Shown one piece after another: positions 2,385 through 13,603 of a stretch of DNA of 13,603 nucleotides. Every line of letters starts with the position of its first letter. Within the stretch, counting starts at the first letter, position 1. The notes beneath the pieces are model-generated. The model ran no database searches, was not told the origin of the DNA, and worked only from the letters and a program-made list of their open reading frames with translations. The DNA is from an uncultured Aquincola sp. (GTDB taxonomy: Bacteria > Pseudomonadota > Gammaproteobacteria > Burkholderiales > Burkholderiaceae), in NCBI GenBank assembly GCA_937883885.1, contig CAKZXL010000682.1, forward strand, positions 1 through 13,603. Direction: 5' to 3'. The position numbers and the translations under genes are program-made.

Positions 2385-5300
2385 TCATTGAGCCAGCGGT
2401 GCGGTCGTGTCCGCGGTTTCACTGCCAGCGCGCATCGCCTTGTCACGCCTGACCTGGAACCCCTCGTCGTCGGGCCTGATCTCCAAGGCCGCATTGAGGG
2501 ACTCAACGGCCAGATCCCACCTGGCGGCCACCTCGAAGACCCTGGCGGCATCGCTGAACAGCCATACATCGCCGGCTATCTGCGGTGTCACCTGCTGCGC
2601 CAAGGCCACGGCAGGCTCGACGTCGGACGCCTGCGCCAGCAGCAGGGCCACGCGAAGCGACAGCCTGGGATCGTTTGTCGGCAGCAGGCGCCTGGCCTGC
2701 CTGGCCTTCTCCAGCGCCAGCACTGGGTCGCCGGCCATCAGCAGCAGTTCGGCCCAGCGGGCCCACGCGCGGGCCAGATCCGGCTGCCGGTGCGAGGCCG
2801 TGGCCGCGGTGTGCAATGCCTCGGCCATCGCGTTCGGGTCGGGCTGGAGAAGAATTTGTTCCGACCAGCTCAACAGGTCCTCGACCTCTGCTGGCAGCAG
2901 CTCGAGCAGTTCATCGAGCACCTTGCGCGCCGCGGGCATGTCCTGCACATCGACCAGGAAGCGCAGCAGCTGCCGCCTTGCGCGCACCGCCTGCGGTCGG
3001 CGCGCCAGTGCGTCGGCGTAGGCAGCGCGCGCTTCGGTTTGGCGGCCCCGCGAATGCTCGGTGCTGGCGATCTCGAGCAGGTCGTCGACGTTGGACGCAT
3101 CCCACTGCGCGGCCTCACGCCAGCGGTCAAGCGCCTCGTCGACAGCGTCTTTGGCCCGTAAGCCTCGCGCAACGAGCCGCAAGGCCTGCGCCGGGCGCTG
3201 TCGCCTTTCCAGGGCCGCATGGGCCCGCTCGATGGCTTTGACGGCGTTACGCGCATCCAGGTAGGTCTGCGACTCGAGCAACAGTGCGCGATCGTCCCAG
3301 GGCTTGGAGAGCGCAACGGCCCGATCGAGCACGTCAAGCGCTGCCTGGAACCGGCCCAGTCCCCGATAGAGGTGGGCAAGTTGCAGGTGCTCGTCCACCG
3401 AGTCCGGGGACTTGCCCACCCTTTGCTCGGCCAGCTCGATCACACCAGGGTCGCGGCGCCACAGCGCCGAGATCCAGGCGCCAGCGATCCAGCCGGCGCC
3501 CGGCTCCAGGCGCATGGCTTGCTGGAAGCCGGCCTGCGCGGCCTGCACATCGCCAAGCTCGGCGCGAGACCGGCCGAGCGCGACCGCCCCGCGAGCCTCG
3601 GCAGGCCAGCGATCCGCCAAGGTTTCAGCCACACGCAACGCCTCGGATGCGTCCTTGACCTTCAACAGGAACTGGACACCGTCGGTCCAGACGTCGATGT
3701 CGTATTGGGCGGCCTGCAACGCCTCGAACATCTTGCGTCGCGCCCCCGACACATCGCCCATGTCGAGCAGCACCCAAGCCCACCGGCGCAGCACCGCACC
3801 CACGCGACAGCGCCGTTGAAGGGCCTGGCCGCACAGCGACGCCGCTTCGGCGTAACGCTCCTGGCTGCGCATCAGTTCCACAAGATCCAACAGGGCCCAC
3901 ACATCGCTCGTCTGGGCGCCCATCGCCTCGCGCAGCGACTTCTCCGCCTCATCAGCCTGGTATCGGTCCAACTGGATCTGGGCCTGAAGGCGCAGCGCCC
4001 TGGCGGGATGCGACCAGGTTTGCCTGGCCCTTTCCACGCACGCCAGCGCCGCGTCCATGCGGCCCTGCAGCCGCTGCACCTCGCCCAGCTCAACCCAGCT
4101 GTAGACGTCGCCCTGGGCACAACCGACGGCCTGCCACAACACGGACTCCGCGCTTGCCAGATCTCCAGCATCTCGGTGCAAGGTGGCGATGCGGCGCCTG
4201 ACATCCGGCGAACGTGGCCACCGGGCACAGGCTTCATGGAGAAGCTCAAGAGCCTGCGCACGCTGACCCGCCTTGCGCAGCAAAGCCGCCTTGTCAAGCC
4301 GGGTCCATACGTCGTCCGCCCTTTCAAGCGCCTGATCCAGCAAAGCGATTGCCGCGGCCCGATCACCTGTGAAACTGAGCGCCTGCGCCTGCCAGCGATA
4401 GCCTTCGACGAACTGGGGGCGAAGCCGAATGACCTCCCGGGCCGATGCGACGGCTGCGGCCGGATCAGCCATGGCAAGGGCGGCCTGGCAGCGTTCGATC
4501 CACCCCCACGGGTCAGCCGGGTCCGCTTCACAGGCCTCGATGGCCCATTTCATGGCCTGCACCACCTCGCCCCGTTCCCGGCAGATGCGGCTGCGATAGC
4601 GGTATGCCGGCGCAAAGCCGGGGTCCAGGGCCTGCAAGGCATCCAGCGCCCTTTCGGCCACGTCGAGCTGCCCCATGCGAAAGTACGTGTCGGCTTCGTT
4701 GACACGGGCCCAGCGCGCCCTGGGTGCCAGATCGACAGCCCGGCCGAGGTAACGCAGGGCCGCACGCAGGTCGGCTTCACGGTCTGCAATGAGTCCCAGT
4801 CCGCGATAGCCCCGGCTGGACCGGGCGTTGCGGCCGATGACCTGCCGGAACCAGCGCCTTGCGGTCTCGAAGTTGCCCTGGTCGAGGTGCAGCAGGCCCA
4901 TGTTGGACATCGCCGCGATGTTCCTGGGGTCGGCGTTGAGCGCCAGCGTGAAGCTCTTTTCGGCCTGCATGAACTCTCGGCGTTCGCGGTGCAGGCTGCC
5001 GGTGAAGTTGTGAAAGCGGACGCCCAGCCGGGCAGTCTCGCGGCCTGTGCGCGTCGAGATGGAGGCCAGGCGGGCAAGGTCCAGCTTGGCCTGCATGCCC
5101 GCCTCATCGCCAAGGTTGCGCAGCAGGGAGGCCCACAACACATAGGCGTCCTGATGCGTGCCGATGGGTGCGGTGGCGAGATGCGCGCGCAGTGCCGCCC
5201 GGGTTCGGTCATACCCTTGTCGAGGACTCTCCAGCGAAAGGAACAGGGCCGCAGCTTCCAGGGTGCTGGTCAGTGGCAGCGCAGCTTCAGCGGCCGCACG

Positions 5301-5867
5301 CATCGCCGCCCCCAGATCGGACACGCCATGGAACCGCACCGGCACGTCCACGAACTGCGCGCTGGAACTTCGTATGCGCAAGCTGTAGCTTCTGCCGCTC
5401 TTGCAAACCTCGCCCAGCAGGCGGCGCTCCTGTCGCCCGAACAAGTGCCTGAAGTAGCGGATGGCACTGCGCACCGACCATGAGATGCCCGGCAGTTGCA
5501 GATCCACCTGCAGCCTGGGCAGTTCGATGAACGAGATGTCGCTGTGGCCGTCGTCCGGACGCGCCGATCGCTGCAGTTCGACGAGCGCGTCGTAGAGCTG
5601 TTGCGAAATGACGCTGCCCGTGAGACCGAGGTCCTGCAACTCCTTCGGCGTATCGAACGGTTCGATGATGAGCGGGTCGCGTATCCACTCCTTGTGGATG
5701 AACTTCGCCGCGAAGGCCAGGCCGATGATGATGAGCAACCAGGTGCCGAGCGACACGAGCGCGCCCACATCGTCCACGAACGGCTTGATGACGGGTACGT
5801 AAGCCGTGACCTTGACCGTCGACGCTGCGATCGCCGCCGGCAAGGCCGCCAACGCCTGTGTGGCCAT
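2385..5867 (-). CDS. Membrane-anchored large TPR-repeat protein
   Basis: The product has 1160 residues. One strong transmembrane helix lies at about 35-57 (GALVSLGTWLLIIIGLAFAA), followed by a basic flank (KFIHKEWIR). By the positive-inside rule this places the large C-terminal part in the cytoplasm. Residues about 65-220 form a separate domain with a conserved-looking segment (PFDTPKELQDLGLTGSV at 70-86). I vaguely recall similar segments at the N-termini of other bacterial TPR proteins, but cannot assign a function. From about 290 to the end there are many degenerate TPR units (for example AAMSNMGLLHLDQGNFETA, AYADALARRP), probably more than 20. This suggests a protein-binding scaffold; no catalytic motif is visible. 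The start at 5867 is fixed by AAGGAGG seven bases upstream; an in-frame ATG at 5936 has no such site and lies near the predicted transcription start. Spot-counted lines give about 65-67% GC, lower than in the flanking genes. The stop overlaps a possible phospholipase ATG. Confidence 0.88.
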   Translation of the reverse strand: MATQALAALPAAIAASTVKVTAYVPVIKPFVDDVGALVSLGTWLLIIIGLAFAAKFIHKEWIRDPLIIEPFDTPKELQDLGLTGSVISQQLYDALVELQRSARPDDGHSDISFIELPRLQVDLQLPGISWSVRSAIRYFRHLFGRQERRLLGEVCKSGRSYSLRIRSSSAQFVDVPVRFHGVSDLGAAMRAAAEAALPLTSTLEAAALFLSLESPRQGYDRTRAALRAHLATAPIGTHQDAYVLWASLLRNLGDEAGMQAKLDLARLASISTRTGRETARLGVRFHNFTGSLHRERREFMQAEKSFTLALNADPRNIAAMSNMGLLHLDQGNFETARRWFRQVIGRNARSSRGYRGLGLIADREADLRAALRYLGRAVDLAPRARWARVNEADTYFRMGQLDVAERALDALQALDPGFAPAYRYRSRICRERGEVVQAMKWAIEACEADPADPWGWIERCQAALAMADPAAAVASAREVIRLRPQFVEGYRWQAQALSFTGDRAAAIALLDQALERADDVWTRLDKAALLRKAGQRAQALELLHEACARWPRSPDVRRRIATLHRDAGDLASAESVLWQAVGCAQGDVYSWVELGEVQRLQGRMDAALACVERARQTWSHPARALRLQAQIQLDRYQADEAEKSLREAMGAQTSDVWALLDLVELMRSQERYAEAASLCGQALQRRCRVGAVLRRWAWVLLDMGDVSGARRKMFEALQAAQYDIDVWTDGVQFLLKVKDASEALRVAETLADRWPAEARGAVALGRSRAELGDVQAAQAGFQQAMRLEPGAGWIAGAWISALWRRDPGVIELAEQRVGKSPDSVDEHLQLAHLYRGLGRFQAALDVLDRAVALSKPWDDRALLLESQTYLDARNAVKAIERAHAALERRQRPAQALRLVARGLRAKDAVDEALDRWREAAQWDASNVDDLLEIASTEHSRGRQTEARAAYADALARRPQAVRARRQLLRFLVDVQDMPAARKVLDELLELLPAEVEDLLSWSEQILLQPDPNAMAEALHTAATASHRQPDLARAWARWAELLLMAGDPVLALEKARQARRLLPTNDPRLSLRVALLLAQASDVEPAVALAQQVTPQIAGDVWLFSDAARVFEVAARWDLAVESLNAALEIRPDDEGFQVRRDKAMRAGSETADTTAPLAQ

Positions 5868-5874
5868 GGCCGCC

Positions 5875-5881
5875 CCTCCTT
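5875..5881 (-). promoter_or_regulatory. Strong Shine-Dalgarno site of the TPR gene
   Basis: The minus strand reads AAGGAGG seven bases before the ATG at 5867-5865. This near-perfect anti-16S match decides between the 5867 start and the longer 5936 start. Confidence 0.8.
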
Positions 5882-5942
5882 CACTGAGTCTTTGGCTGCG
5901 CTGCTGTCTGCCATGCCCTGCCGGCCGACGGGGCATCGGGTG

Positions 5943-5971
5943 ACGATAGGCATCCAGATGCGCACATTCAA
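5943..5971 (-). promoter_or_regulatory. Candidate sigma-70 promoter of the TPR-phospholipase unit
   Basis: The minus strand shows TTGAAT (5971-5966) as a -35 element and TATCGT (5948-5943) as a -10 element. Each matches consensus at 4 of 6 positions, and the spacer is exactly 17 bases. Transcription would start near 5936, giving a leader of about 70 bases before the start at 5867. It is the best-spaced candidate I found in the gap, but it is unproven. Confidence 0.4.
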
Positions 5972-6024
5972 GTCGTCGTGCCCACCTCGGCTTGGCCGGC
6001 CTGCCCGCAGGGCCGGCAACAACG

Positions 6025-6035
6025 CTTGTAACAAG
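6025..6035. repeat. Short perfect inverted repeat, possible operator
   Basis: CTTGT-A-ACAAG has perfect 5-bp arms around one base and lies roughly midway between the two divergent starts. It is AT-rich compared with its surroundings. Its place suits a regulator binding site, but its length allows chance occurrence. Confidence 0.3.
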
Positions 6036-6147
6036 AGCCGCCTCCAGCCTCGCCCAGCGCCGGGGTTAGCGCGCACTTCAAGCTGGTCTGTCAGCTGCCG
6101 ATAAGGAACCCACAGCGGGCTTCCGCACAAGCAGTTCCTCCATCCAG

Positions 6148-7548
6148 ATGACAGAGCAGTACCCGGCAGTTTGGGATCGACACATCCACAGGAACGAGAG
6201 GACGACGAGGCGCACGGTCGCCGCCTGTTGGCCGCGCCCATCACGCAGCGTGGCCCTGGGCCTGGCCCTGGCGGCCTGGCTGGGCGCCGGGCTGTCGTCG
6301 GCGGCGCAGGCCGCTTCGGCGGCGCCGCCGGCACCGGCCTCGACACCGCCCGCGCTGGCGGCCTTGCTGGCGCAAGAGGCTGAGCGCGCCGGCAACCCCG
6401 AGTTCGACTACGCCCTGGGCGTGGCGGCGCTGGACGCGGGCCATCTGTCGCGCGCCATCTTCGCGTTCGAGCGCGTGCTGGAAGTGCAGCCCGGGCATGC
6501 GCAGGCGCGTGCCGAACTGGGCCGCGCCTACCTGGCCGCCGGCGACGTGGAGCGCGGCCGCGAAGAGCTGATGCGGGTGCGGCGCGGCGAGCTGCCGCCC
6601 GAAGCCGCGCAGGCCATCGACCGGGTGCTGGGTGCGCTGGACGCGGCGCCCACCAGCGACCGGCAGCGCAAGTTCAGCGCTTATGCCGAGGCATCGCTGG
6701 CCCGCGACACCAACGTCAACAGTGCCACCAATGCCGGGCAGTTCGCGCTGCCCGCCTTCGGTGGCCTGCTGTTCACCATGGCGCCCGAAGCGCGGCAACG
6801 CCGCGACGTGGTGGCCGGCGCCGCCGTGGGCGCCAGCGCGCAGCTGCCGCTGTCCGCCAGCTGGGACCTGGTGGCCGGCGCCAACCTGCGCGGCACCTCG
6901 CCGCGACGGGTGCACGACATGCAGACCACGGTGGCCGATGCCAGCCTGGGCACCACCCACCTGGCCGACGACAGCTCGCAGACGCTGGCCTGGCAGAGCT
7001 CCGGCGCCTGGCTGGACGGCGGCCGCTACCGCACGGCCAACGGCCTGGCGGCGCAGTGGCAGCAGCAGCTCAACCGCGAGACGCAGGGCAATGTCTTCGT
7101 GCAGCTGTCGCGCCAGTCGTATGCCGGCCAGGCCGAGCGCAACACCGACCGCGGCGTGATCGGCCTGGCGCTGGCCCGCGTGTTCGACGACGGCCGCCGC
7201 CTGGCCTATGGCAGCGCCTACCGCGTGCGTGAGCGGCCGCGCGATGCGATGAACAGCCACTTCGGCCACCAGGGCTACGGCGCACGCCTGGGCGCCGAGC
7301 AGGTGCTGGGCGCGGTCACCGCCTTTGCCGAATGGCAGGTCGAGCGCCGCCACTACGGCGGCACCGAACCGCTGTTCGATGCCCAGCGCCACGACCACCA
7401 GAGCGACTGGCTGGCCGGCCTGCGCTGGAACGTCGGCCCCCAATGGCAGGTGCTGCCCCAGCTGCGGCGAACCATCGCCCGCTCCAACGTCGTGCTGTAC
7501 GACTACCAGAAGACCGTCGTCCAGGTCGCCGTCCGCCGGGAGTTTTGA
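6148..7548 (+). CDS. Slam-like (DUF560) outer-membrane beta-barrel with N-terminal TPRs
   Basis: The product has 466 residues. A hydrophobic signal segment (VALGLALAAWLGAGLSSAAQA, cleavage near residue 55) is followed by a periplasmic helical domain with about two TPR units at roughly 83-160 (YALGVAALDAGHLSRAIFAFERV; HAQARAELGRAYLAAGD). From about 174 to the end there are alternating amphipathic strands typical of a 14-strand barrel, opening with FSAYAEASLARDTNVNSATN, which resembles the DUF560 barrel start. The chain ends in phenylalanine (VAVRREF), as outer-membrane proteins often do. Slam proteins carry lipoproteins or soluble barrel-tailed proteins across the outer membrane; the next gene encodes a candidate cargo. 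The n-region before the hydrophobic core is long (34 residues) and no good Shine-Dalgarno precedes 6148. No better in-frame ATG or TTG exists, and the GTG at codon 35 falls inside the signal. The stop overlaps the next start by one base (TGATG). Alternative: an ordinary DUF560 porin-like protein with no transport role. Confidence 0.82.
   Translation: MTEQYPAVWDRHIHRNERTTRRTVAACWPRPSRSVALGLALAAWLGAGLSSAAQAASAAPPAPASTPPALAALLAQEAERAGNPEFDYALGVAALDAGHLSRAIFAFERVLEVQPGHAQARAELGRAYLAAGDVERGREELMRVRRGELPPEAAQAIDRVLGALDAAPTSDRQRKFSAYAEASLARDTNVNSATNAGQFALPAFGGLLFTMAPEARQRRDVVAGAAVGASAQLPLSASWDLVAGANLRGTSPRRVHDMQTTVADASLGTTHLADDSSQTLAWQSSGAWLDGGRYRTANGLAAQWQQQLNRETQGNVFVQLSRQSYAGQAERNTDRGVIGLALARVFDDGRRLAYGSAYRVRERPRDAMNSHFGHQGYGARLGAEQVLGAVTAFAEWQVERRHYGGTEPLFDAQRHDHQSDWLAGLRWNVGPQWQVLPQLRRTIARSNVVLYDYQKTVVQVAVRREF
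7538..7542 (+). promoter_or_regulatory. Shine-Dalgarno site of the FecR-domain gene
   Basis: GGGAG lies five bases before the ATG at 7548, inside the end of the barrel gene. It supports the overlapping start at 7548 (ATGTCCATG) over longer in-frame starts that would remove the signal peptide from the N-terminus. Confidence 0.55.
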
Positions 7549-9611
7549 TGTCCATGCCTACCTTGAACCAGCCGCTGCACCGGCGCACCGCCCCTTCGGC
7601 CGTGGCCATGGGCGTGCTGCTGATGCTGTCCCACCTGGCCCATGCGGAGCCGGCCGCCACGGTGCTGTTCGCCTCCGGCGACGTACACATCCGCTCGGCC
7701 CAGGGCGTGGTGCGCGCGCCCACCAAGGGCGCCGTGGTCGACTCGGGCGACACCGTGGAAACCGGGCGCGGCAAGCTGCAGCTGCGGATGGTGGACGGCG
7801 CCATGATGTCGCTGAACGAAGAGACGGTGCTGCGCCTGGACGAGTACCACTTGGCCAGCGCGGCGGGTGACGACGAGAAGGGCTTCATGAGCCTGGTCAA
7901 GGGCGGGCTGCGCACCATCAGCGGCAGCATCGGCAAGGCCCGCCAGGATCGCTACAAGCTGGACACGCCGGCCGGCACCATCGGCATCCGCGGCACCGAA
8001 TACGCCGCTGCGCTGGACCAGGGCCTGCGCGTGAGCGTGTTCGGCGGCCGCGTGGCCGTGTGCAACGACGGCGGCTGCGTCGACGTGCCCAAGGGCTTCG
8101 GCGCGGTGACGCCCAACAAGTCGGTACGCCCGGCCGTGAGCACCAAGCTGGCCGTGGTGGTGACCCCGGCCGAGACTACCAGCACGTCGGCCGCGGCCGA
8201 ATCGGCGCCGGCCCAGGAATCGGCTGCGGCCACCACCACGAGCACCAGCACCACCACCAACACGGCCGCCGCTGCGCCGCTGGCCGCCGCCGTGCCCAGC
8301 ACGCCGGTGACCACCACCGAAGGCGAACGCGTGGCCCGCTACGTGGCCGCCGTGCTGTCGTCGCCCGACCCGGTGCTGCCCAGCCCGGCGCCCGCGCCCG
8401 CCACCGGCGAAGACGTGCTGCCCGGCATGGGCACCGGTGCCACGCCGGCCCCGCCGCGCGGCAATGCGCCGATCACCATCACGCCGGCGCCGCTGCCGCC
8501 GGCGCCGCCCGCACCGGCACCGGCACCCGCACCAGCGCCGGATGCTTCGCCGGCGCCTGCGCCCGCGCCAACGCCGGCACCTTCGCCGACGCCGACGCCA
8601 GCGCCTTCGCCCGGCGCCGCGCCTGCCCCCAGCCCGGTGCCCGCCCCGGCACCCAGCCCGGCCCAGCCCGACGTGACCACTCCGGCACCGTCCCCGGCGC
8701 CAGCGCCAGCGCCCGGCAACGCGCCGGCCCCCGCACCCGCGCCGACGCCAGCGCCCTCTCCGGCACCGGCACCGGCACCGGCACCAGCGCCCGACACGCC
8801 CGAAGGCCCCAAGCCCGGCGGCCCCGGGACCGCACCGTCACCGGCACCCGCACCGCAACCCCCGGGCGCCCGCGTGCCGCTGCCCAATGGCGTGGGCACC
8901 GTGGCCCTGGTGTGGACCAACGACAAGGGCGATCCTGGCTCGGGCCTGACGACGGGCGAGCGGACCTTCGCGCCCAACACCGGCCTGACGGACCTGGACG
9001 AAGCCGGTGCCAAGGGCAAGAAGATCCTGGACAAGGGCGTGCCGGTGGACCCCGGCGCCGACGGCAAGGTGGCCTGGGGCCGCTGGACCGGCGGCGAGTC
9101 CAAGGTCAACGACGGCAACGACGACGACAAGGGCAAGGACAAAGGCAAGGGCAAAGGCAAGATCGCCACGCTGCACTACGTGGCCTTCGTCGGCCAGCCC
9201 TCGCTGCCCGCCTTCGGCAGCTATGGCTCCTTCGCATCGACCGCGCCCACGGTCACGTCCGACGGCAAGCTGGTGGCCGTCGGGGTCATCAACTCGGCCA
9301 CCGGCCGGGTGAACCTGGCGCTCACGCGCCTTTTCGGGGGCACGGCCACCTACCAGCTCAACGTGCCGGTGTCGGGCCAGACCTTCTCGCTCAGCGGCAT
9401 CGCCACGCAGCTGGGCAGCTTCGGCTTCGAGGGCGTTTCGCTCATCACCAGCACCGGCAACGGCTGCAACGGCGGCTGCAAGGGCACGCTGGGCGATGGC
9501 GTCTCGGTGCGCGGGCTGCTGGGCGGCACCGGCAACAGCCGGCTGGGCGTGACCTACGGCTTCGACAGCCGGCTGGGCAACGTCACCGGCGTGATCGTCT
9601 TCAAGCCTTGA
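7548..9611 (+). CDS. Exported FecR-domain protein with Pro/Ala stalk and C-terminal beta domain
   Basis: The product has 687 residues. A Sec signal (VAMGVLLMLSHLAHA) has a cleavage site after Ala33; there is no lipobox Cys. Residues about 38-190 form a FecR domain (PF04773), seen in VLFASGDVHIRS, GDTVETGRGKLQLRMVDG and DTPAGTIGIRGTEYAA, with Cys172 and Cys177 close together. A Thr/Ser/Ala linker is followed by a Pro/Ala stalk at about 312-439. A C-terminal domain (445-687) contains WGRW (510-513), a Lys/Gly/Asp run (KGKDKGKGKGK), about eight beta strands, a CNGGC pair (640-644), and a Gly-rich end (RLGVTYGF, VTGVIVFKP). That end resembles the barrel end of TbpB-type Slam substrates. Classic FecR proteins pass signals from outer-membrane receptors to sigma factors, but no sigma factor or TonB receptor is nearby. 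I infer an envelope or surface protein exported with help from the preceding barrel. FecR fold is confident; cargo role is inference. Confidence 0.85.
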   Translation: MSMPTLNQPLHRRTAPSAVAMGVLLMLSHLAHAEPAATVLFASGDVHIRSAQGVVRAPTKGAVVDSGDTVETGRGKLQLRMVDGAMMSLNEETVLRLDEYHLASAAGDDEKGFMSLVKGGLRTISGSIGKARQDRYKLDTPAGTIGIRGTEYAAALDQGLRVSVFGGRVAVCNDGGCVDVPKGFGAVTPNKSVRPAVSTKLAVVVTPAETTSTSAAAESAPAQESAAATTTSTSTTTNTAAAAPLAAAVPSTPVTTTEGERVARYVAAVLSSPDPVLPSPAPAPATGEDVLPGMGTGATPAPPRGNAPITITPAPLPPAPPAPAPAPAPAPDASPAPAPAPTPAPSPTPTPAPSPGAAPAPSPVPAPAPSPAQPDVTTPAPSPAPAPAPGNAPAPAPAPTPAPSPAPAPAPAPAPDTPEGPKPGGPGTAPSPAPAPQPPGARVPLPNGVGTVALVWTNDKGDPGSGLTTGERTFAPNTGLTDLDEAGAKGKKILDKGVPVDPGADGKVAWGRWTGGESKVNDGNDDDKGKDKGKGKGKIATLHYVAFVGQPSLPAFGSYGSFASTAPTVTSDGKLVAVGVINSATGRVNLALTRLFGGTATYQLNVPVSGQTFSLSGIATQLGSFGFEGVSLITSTGNGCNGGCKGTLGDGVSVRGLLGGTGNSRLGVTYGFDSRLGNVTGVIVFKP
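8481..8865 (+). repeat. In-frame Pro/Ala-rich low-complexity repeat tract
   Basis: About 385 bp of GC-rich hexamer-like DNA (GCACCG, GCGCCA, GCGCCC variants) encode about 128 residues, mostly Pro-Ala pairs with interspersed Thr, Ser, Asp and Gly. The purest runs are around 8513-8530 and 8760-8790. Because the unit is six bases, slippage would change stalk length without a frameshift. It probably forms an extended spacer between the FecR and C-terminal domains. Confidence 0.8.
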
Positions 9612-9622
9612 TGGGCTGAGCC

Positions 9623-11857
9623 ATGGACCTGTCCGACCTGCACCGCCTGCAGGCACCGCCCGGTGCCGCGCCCGCCACCGAAGCGGGCGCCATCCGCGGC
9701 CGGCTGCTGCTGGCCACCGGCAATGCCGGGCCGGGGCCGGCGGCCCGCACCGAGGCCCTGCTGGGCAACCTGCGCCAGGCCCGCTTCATGGTGCGGCGGG
9801 TGGACATGGCCGAAGCCAGCGACGTGGTGGCCCTGACGCCGGCCGACGCCTTGCTGATCCATGCCGCCGACGCACCGGCCGAGATGCTGGCGCTGATCCG
9901 CCAGCTGCGCCGCCACCCGGCCTGCGCCCAGCTGCCGGTGGTGGTGATCGCCGCGCCCGGGCTGGACGCGATGCGCGGCCCCGCGATGGTGGCCGGTGCC
10001 ACCCACTGGCTGAGCGAGCCGGTGCACCTGGCCGGGCTGACCAGCATCCTGATGCACTGCACGCTGATGAACCGGCTGCAAGGCGTGGCCCCGGCCGCAC
10101 CGCCGCGGCCCACCATCGAGCACCTGGACACGCTGATCGACACCGGCCTGCGGCTGGCGATGGAACGCGACCGCGCCAGGCTGCTGCGCCACCTGCTGGC
10201 CTCGGGCCAGAAGCTGCTGCATTGCGATGGCGGCACCATGTACATGGTGACCGAGCGCGACACCCTGCGCTTTGAGATGCGCACCCGCGACGACGCCCTG
10301 CCCAGCCTGGAGATCCCGCTGCGCGACGCGGCCACCGGCCAGCCCAACCAGAACTACGTGTCGGTGTACACCGCCGTGCACAACCGCTCGGTGGTGATCG
10401 ACGACGTGTATGCCGAGACACGCTTCGACCTCACCGGCACCCGCGCCTTCGACGCCCAGAGCGGCTACCGCACGGTGTCGATGCTGGCGGTGCCCATCTC
10501 GCCGCGCGGCGGCCAGGCGGTGGGCGTGCTGCAGTTCTTCAATGCGCTGGACCGCCACAGCGGCGAGGTGGTGCCCTTCGACGCGCGCATGGTGCAGCTG
10601 GTGGAAGCGCTGGCCGCGCAGGCCGCGGTGGCGCTGGACAACATCGCGCTGGTGGAATCGCAGAAGCAGCTGATGGAAAGCCTCATCCGCCTGCTGGCCA
10701 CCGCGATCGACGCCAAGAGCTCCTACACCGGCCGCCACTGCGAACGTGTGCCCGAGCTGGCCATGATGCTGGCCCAGGCCGCCTGCGACACGCAGCAGGG
10801 CCCGCTGGCCGACTTCCGCTTTGCCAGCGAAGCCGAGTGGCAGGAGTTCCGCATCGGCGCCTGGCTGCACGATTGCGGCAAGGTGACCACGCCCGAGTAC
10901 GTGATCGACAAGGCCACCAAGCTCGAGACCATCCACAACCGCATCCACGAGGTGCGCATGCGCTTCGAGGTGCTGTGGCGCGACCTGGAGATCGAAGAGC
11001 TGCGCGCCAGCGCCGCCGGGGCGCTGACGCCCGAGCTGCAGCAAGGCTTTGCCGCACGCCGCCAGGCGCTGCAGGACAACTTCGCCTTCATCGCCCAGTG
11101 CAACCTGGGCAGCGAGGCCATGCGCGACGAAGACCTGGCCCGCCTGCAGGCGCTGGCCCAGGTGACCTGGGTGCGCCACTTCGACGACCGGCTGGGCCTG
11201 TCGGCGGCCGAGCTGGACCGCCGCCGCAACCAGCCCCCCGCCCCGCTGCCCGCGGTGGAACCGCTGCTGGCCGACAAGGCCCACGACGTGATCCAGCGGC
11301 CGCCCGAGCAGGCGCTGGACCCGGCCTTCGGCTTTCACATGGCCGTGCCGCAGCACCTGTACAACCTGGGCGAGCTGCACAACCTGGGCGTGCGCCGCGG
11401 CACCCTGACCGCTGAAGAACGCTACAAGATCAACGAGCACATGGTGCACACCATCATGATGCTGGAGCGCATGCCCTTTCCGAAGGAGCTGCGGCGCGTG
11501 CCCGAATACGCCGGCACCCACCATGAGCGCATGGACGGCAAGGGCTACCCGCGTGCCTTGCAGGCACACGAGCTGTCGGTGCCCTCACGCATCATGGCGG
11601 TGGCCGACGTGTTCGAGGCACTCACCGCTTCCGACCGGCCGTACAAGAAGGCCAAGACGCTGTCGGAGGCCCTGACCGTGATGCGCGGCATGGCCGGCGA
11701 CCATGTCGATCCGCATGTGTTCAACCTCTTCCTCAGCTCGGGCGTGTTCCTCGAATTCGCGCGCAAGCACCTGAACCCCGATCAGATCGACGTGGCCGAT
11801 GGCAGCGCCTTCATGGTCGATGCCACGCCGCAAGAGCCCCGCGATGCCGGCCGCTGA
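9623..11857 (+). CDS. Pseudo-receiver-GAF-HD-GYP protein, probable c-di-GMP phosphodiesterase
   Basis: The product has 744 cytoplasmic residues. Residues about 25-140 have the pattern of a response-regulator receiver (hydrophobic strands LLLA, DALLIHA, LPVVVIAA, then GATHWLSEP), but the phospho-acceptor Asp is His, the Thr is Ala and the Lys is Glu, so it should not be phosphorylated. A GAF domain follows at about 175-345 (LHCDGGTMYMV, MLAVPISPRGGQAVGVLQFFN, then the helix LAAQAAVALDNIAL). The HD-GYP domain spans about 355-715: HD at 416-417 in WLHDCGK, His606, the HHERMDGKGYP signature at 633-643, and VADVFEALTASDRPYKKA. All usual metal ligands are present, so activity on c-di-GMP is likely. 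About 190 residues separate the HD pair from His606, where about 30 is usual. The start is 11 bases after the FecR stop, with only a weak purine stretch upstream. Its end overlaps the next gene by 14 bases. Confidence 0.92.
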   Translation: MDLSDLHRLQAPPGAAPATEAGAIRGRLLLATGNAGPGPAARTEALLGNLRQARFMVRRVDMAEASDVVALTPADALLIHAADAPAEMLALIRQLRRHPACAQLPVVVIAAPGLDAMRGPAMVAGATHWLSEPVHLAGLTSILMHCTLMNRLQGVAPAAPPRPTIEHLDTLIDTGLRLAMERDRARLLRHLLASGQKLLHCDGGTMYMVTERDTLRFEMRTRDDALPSLEIPLRDAATGQPNQNYVSVYTAVHNRSVVIDDVYAETRFDLTGTRAFDAQSGYRTVSMLAVPISPRGGQAVGVLQFFNALDRHSGEVVPFDARMVQLVEALAAQAAVALDNIALVESQKQLMESLIRLLATAIDAKSSYTGRHCERVPELAMMLAQAACDTQQGPLADFRFASEAEWQEFRIGAWLHDCGKVTTPEYVIDKATKLETIHNRIHEVRMRFEVLWRDLEIEELRASAAGALTPELQQGFAARRQALQDNFAFIAQCNLGSEAMRDEDLARLQALAQVTWVRHFDDRLGLSAAELDRRRNQPPAPLPAVEPLLADKAHDVIQRPPEQALDPAFGFHMAVPQHLYNLGELHNLGVRRGTLTAEERYKINEHMVHTIMMLERMPFPKELRRVPEYAGTHHERMDGKGYPRALQAHELSVPSRIMAVADVFEALTASDRPYKKAKTLSEALTVMRGMAGDHVDPHVFNLFLSSGVFLEFARKHLNPDQIDVADGSAFMVDATPQEPRDAGR

Positions 11858-12719
11858 CCCCTGGGCCGTGCTGGCCGCCGCCCCCCTGCCCCCCACCCCC
11901 GCCAGCGCCGAGCGGGCGGCCGACGCGCTGACGCGCCTGATGGCGGTGGTGGCCGCGATGCCGCTGAAGGTGTCCGCCACCTGGCAGCGCACCACCGCTG
12001 CGCTGGCGGCCAGCGGCGCCGCCTGCGCCGCCGTCACGCGGGCCGGCAACCGCATCGCACAGTGGATCGACCACCATGCGCCGCAGGCCGACCGCCATGG
12101 CTACCACAACCGCCAGCATGTGTGCGAGGTGATGCTGGCCGCCGCCTTCCTGGGCCGGCTGCACGGACTGCCGGTGCCGCAGCTGCAACTGCTGCTGCTG
12201 GCCGCGCTGGTGCACGACCTGGACCACCCCGGCCAGCCGCAGCGCCACTTCGTGGCCGAGCGGCGGGCGCTGGTGCAGTGCCAGCCCTTCCTGGCGGGTG
12301 CGCAGGTGCCGGCAGCAGACCAGCAACGCCTGGCCACGCTGGTGCTGGCCACCGAGCCGCATGAAGGCGTGCCGCATGCGCTGGCCTGCCAGGCGGCTGT
12401 CGGCAGCCGGCCCGCGCCGCCTGCGCCCGCCCACGCGCCCGAGCTGCAGCAGCTGCAGCAGGACTCTTCGCTGGCCCGGCTGGCCTGCCTGCTCTGCGAA
12501 GCCGACATCCTGCCTTCGGTGGGCCTGACGCCGGCCTATGCGCTGAGCCTGCATGCGCGGCTGGCCGCCGAATGGGGCCGGCCGCTGGCACCCTCGGACA
12601 AGCTGCAGTTCGTCGAACGCACGCTGGCCCAGGGCACCGTGGGCAGCTTCTTCACGCCCAACGTGCAGCGGCTGCAGCAGCTGCTGCGTGCCCCGCTGGA
12701 CCGCCATGCGCTGGCTTGA
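11844..12719 (+). CDS. Class I (HD-type) cyclic nucleotide phosphodiesterase
   Basis: The product has 291 residues and shows the class I 3',5'-cyclic nucleotide phosphodiesterase signatures: YHNRQHVCEV (Y87, H88, N89, H92), HDLDHPG (H124-H128), and a later Asp in LLCEADILPSVG. These metal ligands suit hydrolysis of cAMP or cGMP. No regulatory domain and no membrane segment is seen, so it is probably cytoplasmic. A Pro/Ala stretch at about 190-205 (RPAPPAPAHAP) looks like a loop. I chose the ATG at 11844, preceded by AAGAG about eight bases upstream, over an in-frame ATG at 11799 that would need a 59-base overlap. It overlaps the HD-GYP gene by 14 bases at its start and the CHASE2 gene by 14 bases at its end, so tight co-translation is likely. 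Placed beside a probable cyclase, it would set that messenger's level. Specificity (cAMP or cGMP) cannot be read from sequence. Confidence 0.87.
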   Translation: MPAADPWAVLAAAPLPPTPASAERAADALTRLMAVVAAMPLKVSATWQRTTAALAASGAACAAVTRAGNRIAQWIDHHAPQADRHGYHNRQHVCEVMLAAAFLGRLHGLPVPQLQLLLLAALVHDLDHPGQPQRHFVAERRALVQCQPFLAGAQVPAADQQRLATLVLATEPHEGVPHALACQAAVGSRPAPPAPAHAPELQQLQQDSSLARLACLLCEADILPSVGLTPAYALSLHARLAAEWGRPLAPSDKLQFVERTLAQGTVGSFFTPNVQRLQQLLRAPLDRHALA

Positions 12720-13603
12720 GGCGCTGCGCCGGCACGGCCTGTGGCTGCTGCCGGCCACCACGCTGGCGCTGGTGCTGGCGGTGGCCTGGCGCGACCCGGG
12801 CACGCTGCGCGGCCTGCGGCATGCGGTGTTCGACCAGGCGCAGCGCTGGTCGCCCCGGGTGTACGAACCGGCGCCGGTGCTCATCGTCGACATCGACGAA
12901 GAAAGCCTGCGCCGCGTGGGCCAGTGGCCCTGGCCTCGCACCCGCGTGGCCGAGCTGGTGGGCCGCCTGCAGCAGGGCGGCGCCGCCGCGGTGGGCCTGG
13001 ACGTGGTGTTTGCCGAAGCCGACCGCACCTCGCCGCGTGAACTGCTCAAGTCCACCCGACTGCCGCCTGCCGCCGCGCGGGCCCTGGCCACCCTGCCCGA
13101 CCACGACGAGGTGCTGGCCCAGACCCTGCGCGCCGGCCCGGTGGCGCTGGGCTTTGCGCTCGATGGGGCCGACGGCGCCGCTGGCGCAACGGCCACCGGC
13201 CACGATGGCGGGGGCGCCGGAGTGGACGACGGCACCGCTTGCCAGTCGCCCGCCGGCTTCGTCACTTTGGGTGGCGCGGCCGATGCGCAGCTGAGGTCTT
13301 TCCACGGCTGCGTGCAGAGCATCGCGGTGCTCACCGCCGCCGCGCCCGGCCATGGCGCGCTGAGCTTCATCCCCGATGAAGACGGCGTGCTGCGCCGGCT
13401 GCCGCTGCTGTTCGACCTGCAGGGTCGGCTGGTGCCTTCACTGGCCGCCGAAACCCTGCGCCTGGCCCTGGGCACCAACCGCTACACCGTGCAGGCCGCG
13501 CCCGACGATGGCGGCGTGATCGGTCTGCGGCTGGGGCAGCTGCGCATCCCGACCACGGCCGATGCATCGATGTGGGTGCACTACACGCCGCCGCAGCCGG
13601 CGC
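12706..13603 (+). CDS. CHASE2-domain sensor, probable adenylate/guanylate cyclase (3' partial)
   Basis: The first 299 codons are present and the frame is open to the window end. A transmembrane helix lies at about 12-28 (LWLLPATTLALVLAVAW). An extracytoplasmic CHASE2 domain follows (PF05226): FDQAQRW at 42-48, VLIVDIDEESL at 58-68, WPWPR at 74-78, GLDVVFAE at 97-104, and the later FIPDEDGVLRRLPLL. Between them a Gly/Ala/Asp-rich stretch (about 152-185) looks like an inserted loop. CHASE2 is usually followed by three transmembrane helices and a cyclase, kinase or GGDEF output, all beyond this window. A class III cyclase is my best guess because the preceding gene encodes a cyclic nucleotide phosphodiesterase and because I recall CHASE2 cyclases next to FecR genes elsewhere. 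The start overlaps the phosphodiesterase stop by 14 bases, with only a weak Shine-Dalgarno. Confidence 0.9.
   Translation, partial: MRWLEALRRHGLWLLPATTLALVLAVAWRDPGTLRGLRHAVFDQAQRWSPRVYEPAPVLIVDIDEESLRRVGQWPWPRTRVAELVGRLQQGGAAAVGLDVVFAEADRTSPRELLKSTRLPPAAARALATLPDHDEVLAQTLRAGPVALGFALDGADGAAGATATGHDGGGAGVDDGTACQSPAGFVTLGGAADAQLRSFHGCVQSIAVLTAAAPGHGALSFIPDEDGVLRRLPLLFDLQGRLVPSLAAETLRLALGTNRYTVQAAPDDGGVIGLRLGQLRIPTTADASMWVHYTPPQPA

Follow-up and report, generated by a model that had tools for sequence, protein, structure and literature searches.

Introduction

NsrA is described, in the available parts of PMC7529298 and PMC13001267, as an outer-membrane receptor for surface signals that has CHASE2 cyclases as partners. 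A gene cluster of Campylobacterota brings together a CHASE2 cyclase, a phosphodiesterase, a FecR outer-membrane protein and a tetratricopeptide-repeat (TPR) protein, according to the accessible part of PMC9239204. Here we analyse a stretch of 13,603 bases from an uncultured Aquincola sp. (the window; G+C 65-79% across 1-kb blocks), in which five plus-strand genes at 6148-13603 encode, in this order, a Slam-type outer-membrane protein (SlipAM), a FecR protein, a GAF-HD-GYP protein, a class I phosphodiesterase and a CHASE2 cyclase. The Sinorhizobium meliloti pair NsrA-CyaK is the closest functional precedent, and the operon is a split, Slam-type version of it with turnover of cyclic di-GMP (c-di-GMP) added. 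An earlier, sequence-only reading had named no described function for the full set of genes; the core has in fact been described, as NsrA-CyaK and in the accessible part of PMC9239204, but the full five-gene set is rare (1 of 30 places, see below). The core idea is known, as are parts of the wiring in other bacteria, whereas the full combination is apparently undescribed; what seems to be new is the Slam-type split, the chimera of FecR and cargo, and a clade of cyclases with an Arg/Arg dyad.

In the S. meliloti locus (L081), the CHASE2 cyclase gene is directly preceded by one whose product has a FecR domain (residues 85-179), TPR repeats at about 440-606 and, after them, a long C-terminal region; these two genes we take to be nsrA and cyaK, judging by their size and content. 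Because FecR precedes the outer-membrane barrel, the FecR domain of NsrA should lie in the periplasm. Both systems place FecR, TPR and an outer-membrane barrel next to a CHASE2 cyclase, but NsrA is a single chain, whereas in the window FecR and the TPR-barrel are two proteins. The window further differs in its SlipAM-type barrel, the Slam-cargo domain on its FecR protein, the added phosphodiesterase and HD-GYP genes, and the base-recognition positions of its cyclase type (R/R, against K/S in S. meliloti). The S. meliloti NsrA-type protein gave no PF04575/SlipAM match in this comparison of sequence profiles. The Campylobacterota cluster, compared by description alone, contains the same four functional kinds of protein as the window, but the accessible part of PMC9239204 describes no SlipAM, Slam cargo or HD-GYP protein.

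The Slam or type XI secretion systems (T11SS, DUF560) with TbpB-type cargo resemble the window in their PF04575 barrel with N-terminal TPR and in the adjacent gene for a handle-barrel of cargo fold (by predicted fold). They differ from it in that a FecR signalling domain forms the N-terminal effector of the probable window cargo; in the main text of the T11SS papers PMC8406197 and PMC12282271, the terms FecR, cyclase and CHASE2 occur 0 times.

Results

Organization of the operon

The five genes are packed with junctions of -1, +11, -14 and -14 bases, as the sequence-only reading had stated and as we read again from the sequence, and all five open reading frames are present in the window. The gene for SlipAM (6148..7548, 466 aa) shares one base with the FecR gene (7548..9611, 687 aa), common to the stop TGA at 7546-7548 and the ATG at 7548. 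The FecR stop (9609-9611) is followed by 11 bases and the ATG of the GAF-HD-GYP gene at 9623 (9623..11857, 744 aa). Two overlaps of 14 bases complete the run: the phosphodiesterase gene (11844..12719, 291 aa) starts with its ATG at 11844 within the end of the HD-GYP gene, the stop of which is at 11855-11857, and the CHASE2 gene (12706..13603) starts at 12706, ahead of the phosphodiesterase stop at 12717-12719. The last gene is represented by its first 299 residues, its cyclase domain lying beyond the window end. No sigma-70-like promoter or terminator-like site was found on the operon strand in 5900-13603, which is weak evidence either way, and a scan of the window for CRP-type sites allowing up to 2 mismatches gave 0, where 2.71 would be expected by chance. 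The operon is real: its genes are more than chance neighbours, as their order recurs in relatives.

Pairing of SlipAM with FecR genes

The window SlipAM matched PF04575 with 55.4 bits (cut-off 22) over profile positions 4-288 of 288, the barrel match covering residues 179-466, and carries an N-terminal TPR at about residues 88-150, the architecture of Slam/T11SS proteins. We surveyed 299 genomes from the family of Roseateles terrae (G001) and found PF04575 in 28 of them, at 30 places. The neighbourhoods analysed were L001 and L002 together with 14-20 kb around the other 28 places, using profiles built from the window and its relatives; our own SlipAM profile matched 24 of the 30, and the rest (L156-158, L180, L182 and L183) are known from the Pfam match alone. 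At 25 of the 30 places the next gene downstream, in the same direction, encodes a FecR protein; no FecR gene directly follows SlipAM at L156, L157, L158, L178 or L183. Five whole genomes yielded 13 FecR matches in total, and with so few per genome chance adjacency of SlipAM and FecR genes should be rare. Of 16 genomes from the R. terrae genus, 8 have some SlipAM match, and in 5 of the 16 it is a close one (E below 1e-100).

In this gene-neighbourhood search, of the kind proposed in the sequence-only reading, the SlipAM-FecR pair is the firmest link; CHASE2 is present at 9 of the 30 places, HD-GYP at 8 and the class I phosphodiesterase at 1. That single place, L168, is the only one in the census with the exact order of the window, and seven further relatives have the same set minus the phosphodiesterase. 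Given the rarity of the five-gene set, and with no CHASE2 gene in the fetched stretch around 16 of the 25 SlipAM-FecR pairs, what is conserved is the pair, with the messenger genes as an accessory to it. At L162 (10339-13144) and L165 (10290-13137) a single SlipAM gene is followed by two FecR genes in tandem, an arrangement that would suit one exporter with two cargoes.

Phylum-wide, PF04575 was found in 69 of 398 genomes (62 over the cut-off), and 64 of the 88 listed places were examined. A FecR gene within 900 bases downstream and in the same direction was seen behind none of the 17 strong SlipAM matches (L236-252, E 1e-27 or better) and behind 12 of the 47 weaker ones. FecR being absent behind strong matches and present behind some weaker ones, the pairing is a trait of a divergent SlipAM group and not of classical Slams. 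The order varies: SlipAM-FecR-CHASE2 at L275, L282 and L285, FecR-SlipAM-CHASE2 at L266 and L301, and CHASE2-SlipAM-FecR at L199.

Domain structure of the FecR protein

The FecR protein begins, as judged by eye, with a Sec-type signal peptide without a lipobox Cys, and scored 44.2 bits with the FecR profile (cut-off 24). In the predicted structure, a FecR cell-surface-signalling domain (model residues about 65-200; 7740..8147, plus strand), which a fold search matched to PupR, is followed by a Pro/Ala-rich linker, mostly of low confidence (residues 201-447; 8148..8888), and a C-terminal handle and barrel (residues 448-687; 8889..9608). The best fold matches of the handle-barrel include the known Slam cargo TbpB, fHbp and hemophilin, and also NHBA, LbpB and HphA. 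The Pfam TbpB_B_D profile matched none of 20 members of the FecR group, so that the evidence for cargo came from the fold search instead. The protein is thus predicted to be a chimera in which a Pro/Ala linker joins the FecR/PupR signalling domain to a handle-barrel of Slam-cargo type. Its C-terminal fold, which matches Slam cargo, and the pairing with SlipAM at 25 of 30 places make it the probable cargo of SlipAM, although 6 of the 25 FecR partners have no such end; this is in keeping with the earlier proposal of a translocator with FecR-type cargo. The C-terminal part is 70% identical to a protein of Aquincola agrisoli; plasmids gave 1 weak match to the FecR protein.

The CHASE2 cyclase

The CHASE2 domain of the window cyclase scored 138.4 bits. 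A database protein of 728 aa with CHASE2 and Guanylate_cyc domains (P0066) is 98% identical to the window part over its 299 residues. The L168 cyclase, which served as search query, shares 81% identity with a protein of Aquincola tertiaricarbonis; this and the A. agrisoli match of the FecR protein point to a source that is probably an Aquincola/Roseateles-type member of Burkholderiales. The metal-binding Asp pair and the transition-state Asn/Arg motifs are present in the relatives and in P0066 (the window ends before this domain). We assigned the base-recognition positions by the motifs K-x-x-G-D and D/T-x-x-G-D-x-V-N; their roles are taken from mammalian cyclases. Instead of the Lys and Asp/Thr/Ser that recognize adenine, P0066 has R and R. 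The same Arg/Arg dyad was present in all 120 homologues listed (P0065-P0184, P0066 among them) of at least 2915 found with the L168 protein. Because Arg occupies both base-recognition positions, the label 'adenylate cyclase' would not be safe for the window cyclase, and the earlier naming of cyclic AMP or cyclic GMP as the messenger is not secure. The Arg/Arg cyclases appear to form a group whose product cannot be assumed.

Among 87 distinct cyclase domains in the loci fetched, 67 had Lys/Thr, 14 Arg/Arg and 4 Lys/Ser, with no call for 2. FecR was present at all 14 Arg/Arg loci (which include L001, L160, L166 and L168), and SlipAM and HD-GYP at 12 each. At the Lys/Thr loci FecR was seen in 3 of 67, an undercount, as many flanks were of 1.5 kb and duplicates kept the first locus. 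The association is not exclusive: Lys/Thr cyclases accompany SlipAM-FecR at L266, L301 and L199 (the last entered in the count through a short duplicate, L105), and L275 has an Arg/Arg cyclase without a visible HD-GYP gene. When both positions were masked and a quick tree was made from 85 rows, the Arg/Arg cyclases were one side of a branch with SH-aLRT support of 100, although the program gave a warning about long branches meeting at that point. Among the papers listed on CHASE2 cyclases and on arginine or lysine in class III cyclases, no title or abstract named such an Arg/Arg group. EaPycC, which makes cyclic CMP, has R142 four residues before its metal-binding D146, according to the accessible part of PMC11224242. 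This is the place of the Lys position in the cyclases analysed here, a resemblance and not a test.

The two predicted phosphodiesterases

The GAF-HD-GYP protein, a predicted c-di-GMP phosphodiesterase, matched HD_5 with 159.6 bits and has intact HD and GYP motifs (LHDCGK and HHERMDGKGYP); in its GAF domain the cNMP-binding motif is only loosely present (alignment judged by eye). The 291-aa protein scored 22.1 bits with PDEase_I, under the cut-off of 24.8, but its predicted fold matches class I phosphodiesterases along the whole length and the set of metal-binding His/Asp residues is conserved. The profile alignment ends short of the region with the purine-binding invariant glutamine. By-eye comparison suggests that 8 of 37 homologues of this phosphodiesterase may share their source with one of the 120 listed Arg/Arg cyclases.

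The earlier linking of CHASE2 cyclases with a cyclic-nucleotide phosphodiesterase and HD-GYP recurs in the loci examined. A betaproteobacterial cluster, for which we found no name, has a CHASE2 cyclase, a class II phosphodiesterase, a GspE-like protein and a GAF-HD-GYP protein 40-44% identical to that of the window. It differs in having no SlipAM or FecR, a phosphodiesterase of the metallo-beta-lactamase class and cyclases with the canonical K/T where resolved. The combination of cyclase, class II phosphodiesterase and GAF-HD-GYP was seen at L027, L066 and 21 further loci of L001-L080; L027 and L066 add a GAF-GspE-like ATPase, and L027 also an FHA protein.

Discussion

On balance we lean towards the operon being an envelope-spanning signalling module that runs from the surface to a cyclic nucleotide and c-di-GMP. 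We infer export, sensing, periplasmic signalling, the identity of the nucleotide and the coupling to c-di-GMP as follows. SlipAM in the outer membrane would move the C-terminal barrel of the FecR protein to the surface, as family, pairing and fold suggest. By analogy with NsrA-CyaK, the FecR domain may then signal how this complex stands to the cyclase in the inner membrane, through its extracytoplasmic CHASE2 domain. The cyclase would make a 3',5'-cyclic nucleotide, and the predicted class I phosphodiesterase, which has the active-site residues, would remove it. The GAF-HD-GYP protein could couple the signal to c-di-GMP breakdown, perhaps via its GAF domain. Such an operon would join secretion to second-messenger signalling, give a divergent and little-studied T11SS group a predicted class of cargo, the FecR chimera, and offer a split form of NsrA-CyaK whose surface part, periplasmic part and cyclase are genetically separable. 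It is also conceivable, though we think it rather improbable, that the two proteins form a surface receptor in which the Slam-type translocon holds its FecR cargo across the outer membrane, with the barrel as sensor of the exterior, the Pro/Ala linker running through the pore and the periplasmic FecR domain switching the CHASE2 cyclase, the Arg/Arg clade making a nucleotide other than cyclic AMP that is cleared by the dedicated class I phosphodiesterase and read out into c-di-GMP turnover.

Several observations weigh against this signalling module with the exported FecR protein at its input. Beside the 16 pairs without CHASE2, the cargo-type end is missing in 6 of the 25 FecR partners of SlipAM, and the FecR gene beside CyaD1 is not required for perception, according to the accessible part of PMC5498481. 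To be set next to these is PMC11233812, the one among the papers listed for Slam with FecR that has all the terms. It describes a cluster in Lysobacter that combines Slam and a TbpB-like lipoprotein with a sigma factor, a FecR regulator and a TonB transporter; FecR and Slam genes also stand together there, but FecR and the Slam cargo are separate proteins of an iron system, with no messenger enzymes named in the accessible part of the paper. The short FecR partners fit a signalling role too and so leave our confidence in it unchanged. Short FecR frames without a cargo-type domain are also found at L275, L282 and L285, as if FecR were there the periplasmic partner only.

The same 16 pairs favour a plausible but less probable arrangement, in which SlipAM and FecR form a self-contained secretion system for a binding protein, either surface-bound or released, whose making or export is regulated by the cyclase, phosphodiesterase and HD-GYP protein. 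In both cases where neighbours of such pairs were identified they are housekeeping genes (2-oxoglutarate dehydrogenase complex at L159, molybdopterin oxidoreductase and cytochrome c at L162), and c-di-GMP often controls surface proteins. Against this, FecR and CHASE2 genes are adjacent also where no SlipAM is seen: of 48 loci sampled, 17 have FecR no more than 3 kb away from CHASE2, and 3 have SlipAM. The sequence-only reading had mentioned such adjacency in other bacteria, and the accessible parts of PMC9239204 and PMC5498481 agree with it. Furthermore, the precedent NsrA acts on the input side.

We consider it very unlikely that the FecR protein acts as an anti-sigma regulator of the classical kind, whose sigma factor and TonB receptor would be encoded in another part of the genome. 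The match of its FecR domain to PupR, the Lysobacter cluster and a TonB-receptor gene that in R. terrae faces the operon convergently (L001, 13972-16308, minus strand) would suit such a role. However, the protein starts with a signal peptide (by eye) and the FecR domain, has no cytoplasmic anti-sigma part and ends in a cargo-type barrel, and we rejected the classical FecR-sigma-TonB arrangement on this domain order. Nor do the seven window proteins include a sigma-factor or TonB-receptor Pfam family, as had been noted before, and the Pfam list of the L001 receptor comprises plug and barrel with no N-terminal signalling domain. It is equally hard to credit that the genes are neighbours without shared function, for although membership varies among relatives (the phosphodiesterase above all), the junctions overlap or span 11 bases and co-occurrence recurs in differing orders.

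Divergent from the operon, on the minus strand, the window holds genes for a phosphocholine-specific phospholipase C (52-2388; NCBIfam TIGR03396, 923.9 bits, cut-off 580) and a TPR protein of 1183 aa (2385-5936), which overlap by 4 bases and have no match in the relatives L001 (R. terrae) or L002. FecR and CHASE2 also meet in other settings. At L083 (6130-10148) a LysM-FecR gene overlaps that of a CHASE2 histidine kinase, with a response regulator upstream and a DUF11-rich protein downstream, placing FecR-CHASE2 beside two-component signalling. At L082 (762-10860) FecR and TPR genes adjoin genes of an NHLP-type exporter, with a divergent CHASE2 cyclase gene and, behind it, a gene for a hydrolase of metallo-beta-lactamase fold.
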